Virus record (IMG/VR): IMGVR_UViG_3300021076_000058
Span: 1-29,948 of that record
DNA: 29,948 nucleotides
Reading direction: 5' to 3' (one strand)
Source of the DNA: a virus
The translations under genes were made by a program, and so were the position numbers. Under the pieces are notes generated by a model, which was not told the origin of the DNA, searched no databases, and worked only from the letters and a program-made list of their open reading frames with translations. Within the stretch, counting starts at the first letter, position 1, and each line of letters starts with the position of its first letter. This document shows positions 11,236-28,750 of this stretch, piece after piece.

Positions 11236-11511
11236 TTGGAGATAAATACGCCTTTGAAATCTGAAAGCTTAAGTTGTTTTATTAGAGATGGGTGGAAATG
11301 CCGTCACTGTAATGATAGAATGGGCATTCACCCACATCATGTAATTTATAAATCCCAACAGGGGCCGGACGATCTAACTAATCTTCTGACCCTTTGTTGG
11401 CAATGCCACCATGCAGCACATGAAAAGAAATTACTAATAGAAGTAGTAAAGTTATTAGAGAACGATCTAGAAGTCAAATTTATTAGAGTAAAGGGTTGGC
11501 AACCAAAATGA
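11236..11511 (+). CDS. HNH endonuclease-like protein
   Basis: About 85-91 aa. HNH motif WKCRHCNDRMGIHPHHV, then LTNLLTLCWQCHHAAHE: two CxxC pairs and His residues binding zinc with HH as general base. No ATG: starts could be TTG at 11236 or TTG at 11254, the latter with GGAG at a long spacing of 12. Short compared with homing HNH enzymes; phage HNH proteins of this size may help packaging terminases or act as free nickases. Overlaps the next gene (ATGA at 11508). Confidence 0.8.
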   Translation: MEINTPLKSESLSCFIRDGWKCRHCNDRMGIHPHHVIYKSQQGPDDLTNLLTLCWQCHHAAHEKKLLIEVVKLLENDLEVKFIRVKGWQPK

Positions 11512-17991: not shown

Positions 17992-18494
17992 TGACCCGCA
18001 TTGAAAAAGTAGTACAACTTATTAAAGACAATGGCCCTAGTGAACTCAAGGATTTTAAGAAATTAGGATTAAAACTTAAGAGAGTCGGCATCGGGGCTTT
18101 TCGAAGCGTCTACAAAATCAAAGGCGTTTCACTAGTTGTCAAATTTCCATTAAATGAATCCGGTAAGATTCATTCTCGCGCCGAGTACGATGTAATATTA
18201 GACATTAATAGTTCATGGTCGCATAATAACAAGATTTTAAAACAATACTTACCAGAAATCTTTTACTTTGATCCTGAAAGCACAGTCATAGTAATGCATT
18301 ATTATAAAGAACTGTCACATGCCAAGGCCCGTTTAGTGGAAGGCGTTATAGATAATCTGGTTAAATTAACATGGCCGTTCGCAAAGGATGAAGATACAGA
18401 TATAGGCTATGCTAACTTAGGACTCAGCCCTGACGGTTCGCATCCTATATTTTTGGACTTAGGCTACTTTACGCCTGAAGGAAAATACTATTAA
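17991..18494 (+). CDS. Protein-kinase-fold protein
   Basis: 167 aa from the ATG at 17991 (TAATG coupling). Kinase pattern is complete in miniature: glycine loop VGIGAFRSVY (32-41), VVKFP with Lys51, hinge-like VIVMHYYKEL, DIGYAN (Asp137/Asn142, spaced like HRDxxxxN) and DLG 156-158 (DFG equivalent). The small size and missing HR before the Asp fit bacterial and phage atypical kinases. Substrate unknown: could be a host protein. Part of the replication operon. Confidence 0.75.
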   Translation: MTRIEKVVQLIKDNGPSELKDFKKLGLKLKRVGIGAFRSVYKIKGVSLVVKFPLNESGKIHSRAEYDVILDINSSWSHNNKILKQYLPEIFYFDPESTVIVMHYYKELSHAKARLVEGVIDNLVKLTWPFAKDEDTDIGYANLGLSPDGSHPIFLDLGYFTPEGKYY

Positions 18495-18931
18495 TGAATT
18501 CTAAACAACGAAAGGAAAAAGACGCACGGTTAAGACGTGAATATCAAATTACATTAGAAGAAAGACAATTAGTTTTTGAATATCAGAATAAGTGTTGTGC
18601 TATATGCGGAAAACCAGAAGCAAGCATGAAAATCAGTTTATCCGTGGATCATGCACATAAAGATGGGCTTCTACGCGGGTTACTGTGTCTTAGATGTAAT
18701 AAAGCGTTGGAGTTATTGAACAATAATCCCGTTGTTTGCTTTAATGCAGGAAAGTACTTGACAAATCCTCCTTTTGTGGTAGTATTAGGAGAACGGTATA
18801 CAGCAATCGGGAAAGTAGGAACTAAGATCAGACGTAAGCGATTGGCAAAACTAAAGGAAGAAAATGGGCAAAAAGAAAAAGCAAAGAAAAAAGATAACCA
18901 CAAAAGTAGCAAAAAACAAAAGAGCGTTTGA
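18494..18931 (+). CDS. Recombination endonuclease VII-type HNH nuclease
   Basis: 145 aa, TAATG coupling. Fits the Endo VII pattern: YQNKCCAICGK, VDHAHKDGLLRGLLCLRCNKALELL, i.e. two CxxC pairs and DHxH. T4 gp49 resolves branched DNA before packaging. The basic tail (RRKRLAKLKEENGQKEKAKKK) could bind DNA. Its 3' end carries a possible internal promoter and overlaps the next gene by 68 nt. Confidence 0.85.
   Translation: MNSKQRKEKDARLRREYQITLEERQLVFEYQNKCCAICGKPEASMKISLSVDHAHKDGLLRGLLCLRCNKALELLNNNPVVCFNAGKYLTNPPFVVVLGERYTAIGKVGTKIRRKRLAKLKEENGQKEKAKKKDNHKSSKKQKSV
18758..18785 (+). promoter_or_regulatory. Intragenic promoter, TTGACA-16-TAGTAT
   Basis: TTGACA at 18758-18763, 16-nt spacer ending TTTTGTGG, TAGTAT at 18780-18785. 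The conserved TTTTGTGG is the same as at 6566. It lies in the Endo VII gene and would serve the gene starting at 18864. Confidence 0.5.
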
Positions 18932-23478: not shown

Positions 23479-23510
23479 AAAGGCTCCTAATATGGAGCCT
23501 TTTCTCTTTC
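23479..23510. terminator. Bidirectional rho-independent terminator
   Basis: AAAGGCTCC (23479-23487), loop TAATAT, GGAGCCTTT (23494-23502), then TTTTCTCTTT. Read from the other side it is followed by T-rich TTTATTTTT, so it ends both the plus-strand operon and the minus-strand HNH gene, whose stop codon lies in the hairpin. Confidence 0.88.
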
Positions 23511-23987
23511 CAATCTAATCTGCTTTAAAATCGGTGCTAATAATAAAAACTCTTTATATGTGAATTTATTACTTCGCAGCTTATTACAACTGGTGCAGCA
23601 TACAACACAATTATCTTTTAAATATCCTTGAGTATTATCTTTCCTATCTAAAAATCTGGCATGTGATATAAACTTACCATTTAAAGTGCCATATGGATGC
23701 CAAGGAATTTTTTCCTCACAATAATGACATTCTTTTATTTTTGTAAATTCTAAGAATTCTTCATAAGTTAATGCTATTTCCAAGTTTCTATAATCTTTAC
23801 AAAGTATATTATAAATACTCTCATAAGGTCTTTTTTGATGAGAATGCATTTGACACATACCTGAGTGCGATTTATTATCATCACGTATTTTAATTTCATT
23901 ATGACAGTCAGAAACCGAGCATGTGTAAACACGAACCGTTTTACTTGATTTCTGATGTGGCTCAACCCTAATTAACGTATTGGACAT
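23487..23987 (-). CDS. HNH homing-type endonuclease
   Basis: 166 aa. N-terminal Cys/His part (YTCSVSDCHNEIK, SGMCQMHSHQK) is a zinc finger; HNH core CHYCEEKIPW, ISHARFLDRKD, NCVVCCTSCNKLRS, with a C-terminal helix KFTYKEFLLLAP. Start ATG 23987 with AAGGCGG lies inside the RNR gene (16-nt overlap). The closeness to the RNR, a frequent homing target, suggests a mobile free-standing nuclease. Stop codon is in the terminator stem-loop. Confidence 0.85.
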   Translation of the reverse strand: MSNTLIRVEPHQKSSKTVRVYTCSVSDCHNEIKIRDDNKSHSGMCQMHSHQKRPYESIYNILCKDYRNLEIALTYEEFLEFTKIKECHYCEEKIPWHPYGTLNGKFISHARFLDRKDNTQGYLKDNCVVCCTSCNKLRSNKFTYKEFLLLAPILKQIRLEREKAPY

Positions 23988-26389: not shown

Positions 26390-26464
26390 TGGCAGGAGAT
26401 GTAGGATTTGAACCCACAAGTTCGGATTTGGAGTCCGACAGTTTGCCGTTAAGCTTAATCTCCT
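26390..26464 (-). tRNA. tRNA-Trp (CCA)
   Basis: Acceptor AGGAGAT/ATCTCCT, anticodon stem TCGGA/TCCGA with loop CTCCAAA (CCA), T-arm GTGGGTTCAAATCCTAC, discriminator G and encoded CCA. The lysozyme start is 17 nt downstream. Confidence 0.95.
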
Positions 26465-26572
26465 GTAATGTGTAAGACCGATAATGGGCAACCCGATGCT
26501 ACTTAATAGGTTTGTTCAAAGTATCCTTACGCTTCATACGGAGTACTCCCTGAATTCTTACACAGTTTAAAA
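26465..26572 (-). ncRNA. Cloverleaf-like RNA element with mini-ORF (not a normal tRNA)
   Basis: Between tRNA-Thr and tRNA-Trp. A closing 9-bp stem (26469-26477 with 26556-26564) surrounds three potential hairpins: GGA-GTAC-TCC, TACTT/AAGTA, and GGG-TTG-CCC. There is no T-loop and no anticodon arm, so it is not a standard tRNA. On the minus strand GGGAG is followed 8 nt later by ATG of a 12-codon frame, MKRKDTLNKPIK. It may be a small RNA, a degraded tRNA, or a spacer for processing. Confidence 0.35.
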
Positions 26573-26648
26573 TGGCTCCGGCGACAGGAGTTGAACCTGC
26601 AACCTGTCGATTACAAATCGACTGCTCTGCCAGTTGAGCTACCCCGGA
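26573..26648 (-). tRNA. tRNA-Thr (UGU)
   Basis: Acceptor TCCGGGG/CGCCGGA with one G-G mismatch at pair 6, D-arm GCTCAACTGGCAGAGC, loop TTTGTAA (TGT), T-arm GCAGGTTCAACTCCTGT, discriminator G, encoded CCA. Confidence 0.92.
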
Positions 26649-26705
26649 ATAAACCCGCTTCCCTGAAGAAACGGGGGCTAGTCAATCTTCCGACTAGGGA
26701 TGAAA
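26649..26705 (-). other. tRNA spacer with two hairpins
   Basis: Between tRNA-Cys and tRNA-Thr: CTAGTC/GACTAG with an 8-nt loop and CCCG/CGGG with an inner CTTC/GAAG. These may be processing or protective structures for the polycistronic tRNA transcript. No coding signal. Confidence 0.4.
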
Positions 26706-26782
26706 TGGACGACCATAGTGGGTTTTCACCACTGCATAGCGATTTTGCAGATCGCCGCGTTAATTACCTTCGCCAATGGCCG
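26706..26782 (-). tRNA. tRNA-Cys (GCA)
   Basis: Acceptor CGGCCAT/ATGGTCG (G-T pair included), D-stem GCG/CGC, anticodon stem GCGAT/ATCGC with loop CTGCAAA (GCA), T-stem AGTGG/CCACT with the unusual loop TGAAAAC, discriminator T, encoded CCA. Its 5' end abuts the TAA of the next upstream gene with no gap. Confidence 0.9.
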
Positions 26783-27106
26783 TTATTGATAATCACTAAA
26801 ACTATGAGCTAGTTGCTCGAAATCAATATTTTCTGGTGTATTAAAGTTAGTGAAATCTGTTTCTTCAATTTCTAACTTTTTTGTATCTTCTTCGTGTTCA
26901 ATATCACAAGAACCACGACAGCTACAACCAGAGGAATAACATAAATACAAACGCCCTTCTTTATCTACACCGTAGCCAGAATAAGAATGATTCCCCCATC
27001 CTTCATCACTATCATATATAGAATGTACAAGCACAACTTCATCATTGTTGAAATTGCTTTTCGGAAGTTCTGCGTAATTTGCTTTTACATATTCTAGCAC
27101 GTTCAT
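26783..27106 (-). CDS. Conserved-looking hypothetical protein with Cys-rich patch
   Basis: 107 aa. GAGGAG ribosome binding site inside the end of the upstream small gene (TAAATG junction). DEGWGNHSYSGYGVDKEGRLYLCYSSG is followed by CSCRGSCDIEH, a patch of four cysteines that could bind metal. Acidic C-terminal half. I recall this Trp/Gly/Cys pattern from other phage small proteins but cannot name the family. Stop abuts tRNA-Cys. Confidence 0.8.
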   Translation of the reverse strand: MNVLEYVKANYAELPKSNFNNDEVVLVHSIYDSDEGWGNHSYSGYGVDKEGRLYLCYSSGCSCRGSCDIEHEEDTKKLEIEETDFTNFNTPENIDFEQLAHSFSDYQ

Positions 27107-27274
27107 TTAATTCTCCTCACAATAAAGTGCATTTTGCGGAACTAAACGATATGCAGTATACTCAATGTTCAATTTTTTAAACACTTCTATTTTTGCATTC
27201 GCTTCATCGGGTGACAATGTTTCTGTTACCCATTTAACCCCGTTATGTGTTATAATACTTACTTTATTATTCAT
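27107..27274 (-). CDS. Small hypothetical protein, 55 aa
   Basis: ATG at 27274 gives MNNKVSIITHNGVKWVTETL, ending NALYCEEN; the TAA sits directly before the next ATG. It fills the gap between tRNA-Gly(UCC) and the 107-aa gene and supplies that gene's GAGGAG. It has no Shine-Dalgarno of its own: the CCA of tRNA-Gly lies 7 nt upstream, so 3' processing of the tRNA would leave a nearly leaderless message. A helical part (PDEANAKIEVFKKL) fits a real protein. Confidence 0.7.
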   Translation of the reverse strand: MNNKVSIITHNGVKWVTETLSPDEANAKIEVFKKLNIEYTAYRLVPQNALYCEEN

Positions 27275-27281
27275 AATATTT

Positions 27282-27355
27282 TGGTTCGGGATAGCAGACT
27301 TGAACTGCTGACTTTTGGGTGGAAGCCAAATATGTTACCACTACACTAATCCAGA
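27282..27355 (-). tRNA. tRNA-Gly (UCC)
   Basis: Acceptor TCTGGAT/ATCCCGA with one T-C mismatch at pair 3, D-stem GTGT/ACAT, anticodon stem TTTGG/CCAAA with loop CTTCCAC (TCC), T-arm AGCAGTTCAAGTCTGCT, encoded CCA. Confidence 0.92.
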
Positions 27356-27359
27356 ACAT

Positions 27360-27435
27360 TGGCGCGGGACGCGAGACTCGAACTCACTCCATATGGTTGG
27401 CGACCACAGATGCTACCATTAAACACCAATCCCGC
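27360..27435 (-). tRNA. tRNA-Gly (GCC)
   Basis: Acceptor GCGGGAT/GTCCCGC, loop TCGCCAA (GCC), T-arm GTGAGTTCGAGTCTCGC, discriminator G, encoded CCA. 5' end is 2 nt after the stop of the release-factor-like gene and near the predicted start of the 27444-27472 promoter. Confidence 0.93.
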
Positions 27436-27437
27436 AC

Positions 27438-27768
27438 TTACTTAATATACTCTACTTTTAAATTCTTGTCAAGCATCATGGCGTCTACTGTTTGATCTAT
27501 TTCTTTAAGTTGTCCTAAACGCCGTAACGTTTCTATTTTGTGCCAAGCTTTAAATTCCTTAGACTCAACACATTTGCGAAACGCTTCTCGCTTGTTAAAG
27601 ATACTGCTCTCGCCCATCTCTATGCTCACCTACAGCATTAGAAGGTGGGTGAATGCAGCGTACTCCGTTTTGTTTAGCGTTTCTATGTTGACCGCCCTTT
27701 CCGCCTGTGCAGAAAGTTTGGAATTCAAAGTCTTTGGCAGTCAATGAAAACAATAATTGTTTTGGCAT
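27438..27768 (-). CDS. GGQ-domain release-factor-like protein, +1 frameshifted at CUU UAA C
   Basis: Two frames make one protein. ORF 1 (27768-27595, 57 aa) begins MPKQLLFSLTAKDF behind AAGGAGGG and contains TGGKGGQHRN (GGQ at 25-27, the ester-hydrolysis loop of release factors), then PSNAVGEHRDGREQYL and TAA. A +1 slip at CTT/TAA gives AAC and NKREAFRKCVESKEFKAW, which continues the family pattern (RSQHxNKxxAF): 109 aa in all. The site TAT CTT TAA C mirrors prfB TAT CTT TGA C. It likely hydrolyses peptidyl-tRNA on ribosomes; no codon-recognition domain is present. A start inside (ATG 27617) is possible. A T-insertion error in TTT would look the same. Confidence 0.75.
27444..27472 (-). promoter_or_regulatory. 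tRNA promoter, TTGACA-17-TATATT
   Basis: -35 TTGACA (27472-27467), 17-nt spacer, -10 TATATT (27449-27444), all inside the last codons of the release-factor-like gene. Start is expected near 27437, so the transcript would begin 1-2 nt before tRNA-Gly(GCC). Confidence 0.75.
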
Positions 27769-27797
27769 AGCCTACCCTCCTTTTTTAAAATCTAATA

Positions 27798-27871
27798 TGG
27801 CACCGGGTCAAGGATTCGAACCTCAATAGGCAGATTCAAAGTCTGCCGTCCTGCCGTTGAACGAACCCGGT
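27798..27871 (-). tRNA. tRNA-Gln (UUG)
   Basis: Acceptor ACCGGGT/ACCCGGT, anticodon stem GCAGA/TCTGC with loop CTTTGAA (TTG), T-arm GAGGTTCGAATCCTT, discriminator G, encoded CCA. Lies just upstream of the release-factor-like gene. Confidence 0.94.
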
Positions 27872-27875
27872 ATTT

Positions 27876-27949
27876 TGGCTCCCACATAATGAATCGAACA
27901 CCAGTTTGAAGGGTCAGAACCTTCCGTCTTACCACTAAACGATATGGGA
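27876..27949 (-). tRNA. tRNA-Gln (CUG)
   Basis: Acceptor TCCCATA/TGTGGGA, anticodon stem GAAGG/CCTTC with loop TTCTGAC (CTG), T-arm TGGTGTTCGATTCATTA, discriminator G, encoded CCA. Second glutamine tRNA, so both CAA and CAG are served. Confidence 0.92.
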
Positions 27950-27952
27950 ACA

Positions 27953-28138
27953 TTAACCGTTCTTGGGAACTAATAAAACCTCTACTCCATTTGAAACCAT
28001 TGTGAATACATCATTTGTATCTAGTTTGTGACCTACTTTAGTAGCAATATCTGTCACATCCGTTTCAACTTTAATTACTTCCAGTGTTGAGTAATGATAA
28101 CCCATTTTAACTGGTGTTATTGTAAAACGTGTTTTCAT
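27953..28138 (-). CDS. Hypothetical small protein, 61 aa
   Basis: ATG at 28138 with AAAGGAG 7 nt upstream (an earlier in-frame ATG lies in tRNA-Asp). Beta-rich sequence: RFTITPVKMGYHYSTLEVIKV, then HKLDTNDVFTMVSNGVEVLLVP, suggestive of a small beta-barrel. Sits between tRNA-Asp and tRNA-Gln(CUG); its stop is 3 nt before the latter. No family seen. Confidence 0.75.
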   Translation of the reverse strand: MKTRFTITPVKMGYHYSTLEVIKVETDVTDIATKVGHKLDTNDVFTMVSNGVEVLLVPKNG

Positions 28139-28149
28139 ATAAACTCCTT

Positions 28150-28225
28150 TGGCACTCCCGACGAGAGTTGCACTCGCATCTAACACCGTGACAAGGTGCT
28201 GCTCTCACTGTTAAGCTACGAGAGT
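28150..28225 (-). tRNA. tRNA-Asp (GUC)
   Basis: Acceptor ACTCTCG/CGGGAGT, anticodon stem GCACC/GGTGT with loop TTGTCAC (GTC), T-arm GCGAGTGCAACTCTCGT, discriminator G, encoded CCA. Confidence 0.93.
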
Positions 28226-28231
28226 GTAACT

Positions 28232-28307
28232 TGGTAGCGCGTGCGGGATTTGAACCCATCATTCGCGGCTTGAAAGGCCGCTGTCCTAACCGTTAGACGA
28301 ACACGCC
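28232..28307 (-). tRNA. tRNA-Glu (UUC)
   Basis: Acceptor GGCGTGT/ACGCGCT, anticodon stem GCGGC/GCCGC with loop CTTTCAA (TTC), T-arm TGGGTTCAAATCCCG, discriminator A, encoded CCA. Confidence 0.94.
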
Positions 28308-28318
28308 ACACTAAACTT

Positions 28319-28395
28319 TGGTTGGCATGAAAGGCATCGAACCTTTAACCTTGCGGTTATCAACCGCACGCTCTAGCCGTTTGAGCTACACGCCA
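28319..28395 (-). tRNA. tRNA-Ile (GAU)
   Basis: Acceptor TGGCGTG/CATGCCA, D-arm GCTCAAACGGCTAGAGC, anticodon stem TGCGG/CCGCA with loop TTGATAA (GAT), T-arm AAAGGTTCGATGCCTTT, encoded CCA. One base from tRNA-Phe. Confidence 0.95.
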
Positions 28396-28396
28396 A

Positions 28397-28471
28397 TGGT
28401 GGGATCGGATGGACTCGCACCACCATCGCCTACCTCTTCAGGGTAGCGTTCTACTTTGGAACTACAATCCC
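28397..28471 (-). tRNA. tRNA-Phe (GAA)
   Basis: Acceptor GGGATTG/CGATCCC (same as tRNA-Lys here), anticodon stem CTACC/GGTAG with loop CTGAAGA (GAA), T-arm GGTGGTGCGAGTCCATC, encoded CCA. Confidence 0.94.
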
Positions 28472-28500
28472 TAATTAATCTTCCCATCCCATCTCTAATA

Positions 28501-28529
28501 ATCATAACATATCTCCTTGTAAATGTCAA
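28501..28529 (-). promoter_or_regulatory. tRNA promoter, TTGACA-17-TATGAT
   Basis: TTGACA (28529-28524) follows the CCA of tRNA-Val by 1 nt; 17-nt spacer; TATGAT (28506-28501) with TGT before it (TGn extended -10). Start near 28494 gives a short leader to tRNA-Phe and the tRNAs behind it. Confidence 0.75.
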
Positions 28530-28530
28530 A

Positions 28531-28604
28531 TGGTTGCCCATGAGGGAGTCGAACCCACACAACCAGTGTGTAAAACTGGTGTTCTGCCGTTAAACTAACG
28601 GGCA
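28531..28604 (-). tRNA. tRNA-Val (UAC)
   Basis: Acceptor TGCCCGT/ATGGGCA, anticodon stem CCAGT/ACTGG with loop TTTACAC (TAC), T-arm GTGGGTTCGACTCCCTC, discriminator A, encoded CCA. Confidence 0.94.
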
Positions 28605-28675
28605 ATAAATCTATTCTAGCACGCCCCATTCTCGCAACGCATAGGGCAGTAGTTTAATGTGCTACTAGAAACTTT
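28605..28675 (-). other. tRNA spacer with a small hairpin
   Basis: AGTAG/CTACT with a 9-nt loop near 28650-28668. No tRNA, no coding frame with a start signal, and no well-spaced -35/-10 pair that I can find. Probably a processing spacer between tRNA-Ala and tRNA-Val. Confidence 0.35.
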
Positions 28676-28750
28676 TGGTGGACCGTGAGAGAATCGAACT
28701 CTCAACTTCGGCTTGCAAAGCCACTGTTTTCCCGTTAGAACTAACAGCCC
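28676..28750 (-). tRNA. tRNA-Ala (UGC)
   Basis: Acceptor GGGCTGT/ACGGTCC with the alanine identity pair G3-U70; anticodon loop TTTGCAA (TGC) on a stem with one G-A mismatch; T-arm GAGAGTTCGATTCTCTC; encoded CCA. First tRNA of the minus-strand cluster in the direction of transcription. Confidence 0.93.

Follow-up and report, generated by a model that had tools for sequence, protein, structure and literature searches.

In the window, that is, the whole 29,948-nt stretch of viral DNA analyzed here (positions 1 to 29,948 of the IMG/VR record IMGVR_UViG_3300021076_000058), the gene of a soil-phage GGQ protein of the release-factor superfamily is split after codon 57 by TAT CTT TAA C and continues in the +1 frame. 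It is likely that a programmed +1 ribosomal frameshift yields the full-length protein (we put the probability at roughly 0.78, in the absence of expression data). In the literature searched, bacterial prfB is the only gene for which CUU-stop +1 sites are reported. The phage gene belongs to the same superfamily and has a reduced site, in another domain and with UAA as the stop; it offers a natural experiment on which parts of the prfB site are needed and on whether phages sense termination capacity during infection. Gene callers will list such a protein as a fragment of 57 aa and, separately, an unrelated ORF. The features are as follows.

27438..27768, minus strand: gene of the GGQ-domain (RF-1 domain) phage protein, 109 aa given one +1 step
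27595..27768, minus strand: frame-0 part (from the ORF list), a truncated 57-aa product ending at the in-frame TAA
27438..27596, minus strand: +1-frame part, NKREAFRKC...VEYIK, covering the conserved helix that follows the GGQ loop as well as the C-terminal helices
27594..27603, minus strand: frameshift site TAT CTT TAA C, read from the sequence and identical in the related contig L025
27600-27598, 27597-27595 and 27594, minus strand: P-site CTT, stop TAA and +4 C of that site
27774..27785, minus strand: Shine-Dalgarno region AAAAAAGGAGGG of the frame-0 start, read from the sequence
27798..27871, minus strand: tRNA-Gln(ttg), directly upstream of the GGQ gene (ARAGORN)
27360..27435, minus strand: tRNA-Gly(gcc), directly downstream of the GGQ gene (ARAGORN)

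The ATG start of frame 0 is preceded by AAAAAAGGAGGG, a strong ribosome-binding site, and the motif GGKGGQHRN lies within frame 0 (27768-27595, minus strand). The 57-aa frame-0 product contains the GGQ loop and lacks the helix that follows it. With CTTT (within the natural site, GAGCAGUAUCUUUAACAAGCG) read as one leucine, the two frames join into an uninterrupted protein of 109 aa, ...GREQYL-NKREAFRKC..., without adding or dropping a residue. This joined protein matches Pfam RF-1 (PF00472) with 38.1 bits (E 1.6e-9), above the cut-off; the first half alone reaches 29.2 bits, below the cut-off, and the second ORF as listed has no Pfam match. A match to phrog_3122, "RF-1 domain peptide chain release factor," spans residues 3-106 of the joined protein's 109 (E 1.3e-21). 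Its AlphaFold model (pLDDT 84.9) resembles the catalytic domains of RF1/RF2 among solved structures, with weaker matches to PrfH and mtRF-R/C12orf65. An earlier note on this sequence had claimed a GGQ gene split at TAT CTT TAA C with the +1 frame continuing as NKREAFRKC, and that claim holds by translation and by Pfam.

The window protein is a stand-alone GGQ protein, probably a peptidyl-tRNA hydrolase of the release-factor type. Of the two features of class I RF1/RF2, the GGQ catalytic domain is present (PF00472 and the RF1/RF2 structure matches) and the stop-codon-recognition domain 2 is not, only positions about 210-284 of profiles of ~350 being matched. A stand-alone GGQ domain, with a weak fold match to mtRF-R (C12orf65), is shared with ArfB/YaeJ and mtRF-R. 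Unlike ArfB/YaeJ, the window protein has neither the basic C-terminal tail nor the insertion helix between strands 2 and 3 that are features of ArfB (PMC3950681): the last 25 aa have a net charge of -1 and the alignment with RF1 is gapless across the loop. PrfH (about 200 aa, NCBIfam cut-off 166.65) is not matched at the required level, with 33.8 bits over the GGQ part only. The protein is of the same family as, and similar in length to, the phrog_3122 proteins (mycobacteriophage, Tunturi phage "peptide chain release factor"), except that all inspected phrog_3122 members from isolated phages are continuous ORFs.

The gene sits inside a dense phage tRNA array, with 13 tRNAs within 26390-28750 (ARAGORN). 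The release-factor gene has the same tRNA setting in L025 and in a further related phage, L143. Small unidentified ORFs lie between tRNAs of the window array (26783-27106, 27107-27274, and 27953-28186). The putative host phylum, inferred from homologues in Tunturiibacter phages, is Acidobacteriota. For prfB of that phylum, the one Acidobacteria-labelled genome that could serve as a centre has neighbors of ~1.5 Mb, in which motif hits are mostly TTTTTGAC; these are unlikely to be of the right phylum, and the result was set aside.

The break is conserved in a sister phage. The IMG/VR contig L025 has the same locus order (tRNAs, release-factor gene, tRNAs, lysozyme, RNR), and the 21-nt junction GAGCAGTATCTTTAACAAGCG is identical in both. 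The gene itself shows only 73% DNA identity; the two are therefore different phages, and the extra base is not one assembly error repeated. Between window and L025, pN is 0.087 and pS 0.73 before the break, and pN is 0.178 and pS 0.857 after the break (in the +1 frame), with synonymous sites saturated in both halves. A pN of 0.178 against a pS of 0.86 indicates strong purifying selection on the downstream half as read in the +1 frame (Fisher p 5e-12). This half is not more relaxed than in unbroken homologues, since the ratio of pN after to pN before the break is 1.86 for window/L025, not above the 2.57 of pairs of unbroken homologues. The conservation of codon runs at the site is weak: the six codons around it are all identical between window and L025 (6/6, p about 0.015, only mildly unusual), and the longest-run test of codon identity gives p 0.59. 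In L025, positions 1680-1730, a tRNA-like remnant (CACACCGGGTTCGTTCAAAGGCTAGGAC...CCTACCA) occurs just upstream of the release-factor-like gene; ARAGORN made no call there.

In the RNR protein tree, window and L025 are sisters (support 98/96), with the unbroken L143/L001 phage next, so that the +1 break is most simply one old event retained in both lineages. In the L143/L001 phage, AAG occurs in place of the CTT T of window and L025. The earlier note had proposed alignment with homologues as a check of the split and of CUU-stop-C, and both are conserved in L025 despite saturated synonymous divergence. Its refuting case, homologues with an unbroken frame and no CUU-stop, holds only among more remote members.

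The split form is rare. Among 54 IMG/VR loci gathered by the family profile, the exceptions to continuity are L025 (L186), L198, the pair L188/L189, and one locus cut at a contig end; in the ~49 others the gene is unbroken, as far as these were inspected. A homologue occurs in 204 phage records, and in the rows inspected (the 60 best, plus 60 taken at even steps) the match is always in one piece. Scans of genome and viral contigs for CTT/TTT-TRA at the same position gave no further true case. A broad pattern (GGQH, 84 nt, YTTTRAYAAR) gave 68 matches in viral and genome contigs, all of which, except L025, are chance matches without the release-factor frame. No match to the GGQ gene is found in the records of the RNR-bearing relatives L134-L142 and L144, or in plasmids. 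Clean members of the split form are thus known only in the window and L025.

A second occurrence of the site is found in L198 (IMGVR_UViG_3300037258_000514), on a 176-kb contig, where CAT CTT TAA T is present at the same codon (region 1492-1770) and is followed by NRKEAFLKLIETPTFKAWHKAEVAR in the +1 frame. The gene is release-factor-like, with a GGQR variant, and also lies in a tRNA array. A tree test rejects the grouping of L198 with window and L025 (AU p 0.0056), and on that ground the CTT TAA site probably arose at least twice. Further frame breaks are apparent at the C-terminus of L198, which could be a decaying copy, and we therefore give it limited weight.

The site has most parts of the prfB (RF2) cassette: CTT directly before the stop, TAT before it, C after it, the +1 direction, and a gene of the release-factor superfamily. 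The prfB-type arrangement of CTT followed by an in-frame stop read by RF2 (TGA or TAA) is met by TAT CTT TAA. In a 32-variant test with a 3′ stop codon, CUU U is reported to be by far the most efficient +1 string (PMC5009743). Most prfB sites have another stop, but 1.4% of the genomes that carry the motif have CTT TAA in prfB, as the window does in its GGQ gene (PMC12421855). The window site differs further in lying within the GGQ domain, whereas that of prfB is near codon 26, and the protein differs from RF2 in being phage-encoded and without a stop-recognition domain. The AGGGGG-type Shine-Dalgarno-like stimulator 3 nt upstream of CTT is absent, with GAGCAG there instead: the 9 nt upstream of the site pair with the anti-Shine-Dalgarno at -1.9 kcal/mol, against -10.3 for AGGGGGUAU. 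The site is therefore a reduced prfB-type site, a variant with one defining stimulator missing. Because AGGGGG is hyper-conserved in prfB, the efficiency could be lower here, or could be aided by an unrecognized element. The earlier note had seen no obvious AGGGGG, which holds, and had suggested that efficiency may differ, on which there are no data.

The motif alone carries little weight, about 47 YTTTRAY-like strings being present in the AT-rich window (both strands, any frame). The case rests on context: the site is in frame, at the exact break, and common to the diverged L025. The C after the stop is present in window and L025; L198 has T. Downstream RNA structure in the window gives z about -3 (simple shuffles) and is not found in L025.

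Other ways of decoding through the TAA were checked. Among the phage tRNAs found, there is neither a stop suppressor nor one with an enlarged anticodon loop (four-base tRNA). In the window phage TAA is an ordinary stop and not a sense codon, as it ends 15 of 27 sampled genes. With suppressor tRNA, enlarged anticodon loop, sense TAA, and a conserved internal ATG all unsupported, +1 frameshifting is by far the most likely route to the protein, still without expression data. The earlier proposal of prfB-like +1 slippage at CUU UAA C is thus supported, all the in-silico checks proposed having been passed.

We found in the open-licence literature searched neither a CUU-stop site outside prfB nor a phage release-factor gene with one. 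Phage genes with +1 shifts do exist, as in cps and tsh of Listeria phage PSA, with the shift in tsh directly before a stop (CCC UGA). Unlike the window site, those are in structural genes, at proline codons, with two products per gene (PMC5009743).

The proposed mechanism is as follows. With CUU in the P site, UAA would stand in the A site, followed by the weak-context base C. Slow termination at UAA would let peptidyl-tRNA-Leu slip from CUU and re-pair on UUU; without slippage, the 57-aa fragment lacking the helix after the GGQ loop would be released. The data show the split itself, its conservation in the diverged L025, selection before as well as after the break, and a slippery codon in its stop context; slippage at CUU is inferred by analogy with prfB. 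More weakly inferred is a higher yield under slow termination at UAA, as when RF1/RF2 are scarce or ribosomes overloaded. The amount of this rescue or release protein would then depend on how much termination capacity the infected cell has. Any regulation of protein level by the site is an inference, and the earlier claim that low termination capacity raises the level has no data behind it. Because the GGQ protein lacks a stop-recognition domain, it is not expected to regulate itself directly in the way RF2 does.

Two readings accept the frameshift and differ on its use. In one, it is a tolerated "saviour" frameshift: a T was inserted by chance, a leaky site suffices, and nothing is regulated. 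A T inserted beside CTT creates the site in one step, the related L001 is unbroken with AAG instead of CTT T, the clean form occurs in only one small clade, and there is no Shine-Dalgarno-like stimulator. Against this, the break is kept in two lineages through saturated synonymous divergence, though the loss of one T would remove it, and L198 probably acquired CTT TAA at that codon independently. In the other, the site is a prfB-like sensor: UAA C competes with slippage, so that an infected cell low in termination capacity makes more of the GGQ protein. In favor of this are the gene's own homology to release factors, a logic matching that of prfB, and the statement of the PRFect paper (PMC10885494) that RECODE has no CUU-stop +1 site outside prfB. 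Against the sensor, self-sensing of UAA is not expected without a stop-codon-recognition domain, the Shine-Dalgarno-like element is absent, and TAA is read by both RF1 and RF2. Both readings fall short of even odds and are about equally likely, the tolerated accident marginally ahead.

The remaining readings are weaker. That the extra T shields the gene from homing endonucleases targeting release-factor genes in tRNA/HNH arrays, with frameshifting rescuing expression, is unlikely. It parallels the model for the T4 gene 60 insert, L188/L189 have an HNH gene beside a 23-nt insert in the same gene family, and the window is rich in HNH-like genes (11236-11511, 18494-18931, and 23487-23987, by eye from the ORF list); however, some 80 nt separate the T from the point of insertion in L188, and the window gene has no endonuclease next to it. 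There is still less for two separate proteins, the second half starting internally and pairing with the first. The window does have ATG GGC GAG in the second frame, at about 27610-27640 (minus strand), a few codons before the site and with AGGTGA 8 nt upstream, but in L025 ACG stands there, the sequence upstream is weaker, and the one candidate start is a different GTG; moreover, the break would divide the release-factor fold within one structural unit. A sequencing or assembly error, or a pseudogene, could be invoked since homologues are mostly unbroken. This is made very unlikely by the same break in an independent contig, 27% diverged, by selection that persists after the break, and by large genes intact elsewhere in the window (an RNR of 628 aa and ORFs of 678 and 550 aa).

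A bolder reading, which we only hold possible, is that recoding arises again and again in phage genes for single-domain release factors. It joins, as a possibility taken together, CUU-UAA +1 sites of at least two origins at one codon and a T4-gene-60-like bypass in a third lineage. If true, phages would let the termination capacity of the cell they infect control a termination or rescue factor.

The third lineage is represented by L188 (IMGVR_UViG_3300031524_001640, region 1485-1868) and L189 (IMGVR_UViG_3300029908_000004), from two metagenomes and identical over the region read, in which a gene of the same family is interrupted. A 23-nt insert, TAGGTCGGGAGACCTATATTCAC, occurs right after the CAT codon of GGQH. 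It has an in-frame TAG directly after CAT and a perfect 6-bp hairpin with a GGGA loop, and it ends with CAC (the same amino acid as CAT), after which RNAKQNGVR... resumes. Immediately upstream lie a gene for an HNH-like endonuclease and a partial 5′ gene copy. Bypassing in T4 gene 60 presents parallels: a take-off codon followed by UAG, a matched landing codon, a hairpin, and a 5′ homing endonuclease (PMC5009743). On sequence alone, the pair is a candidate for translational bypass of the T4 gene 60 type.
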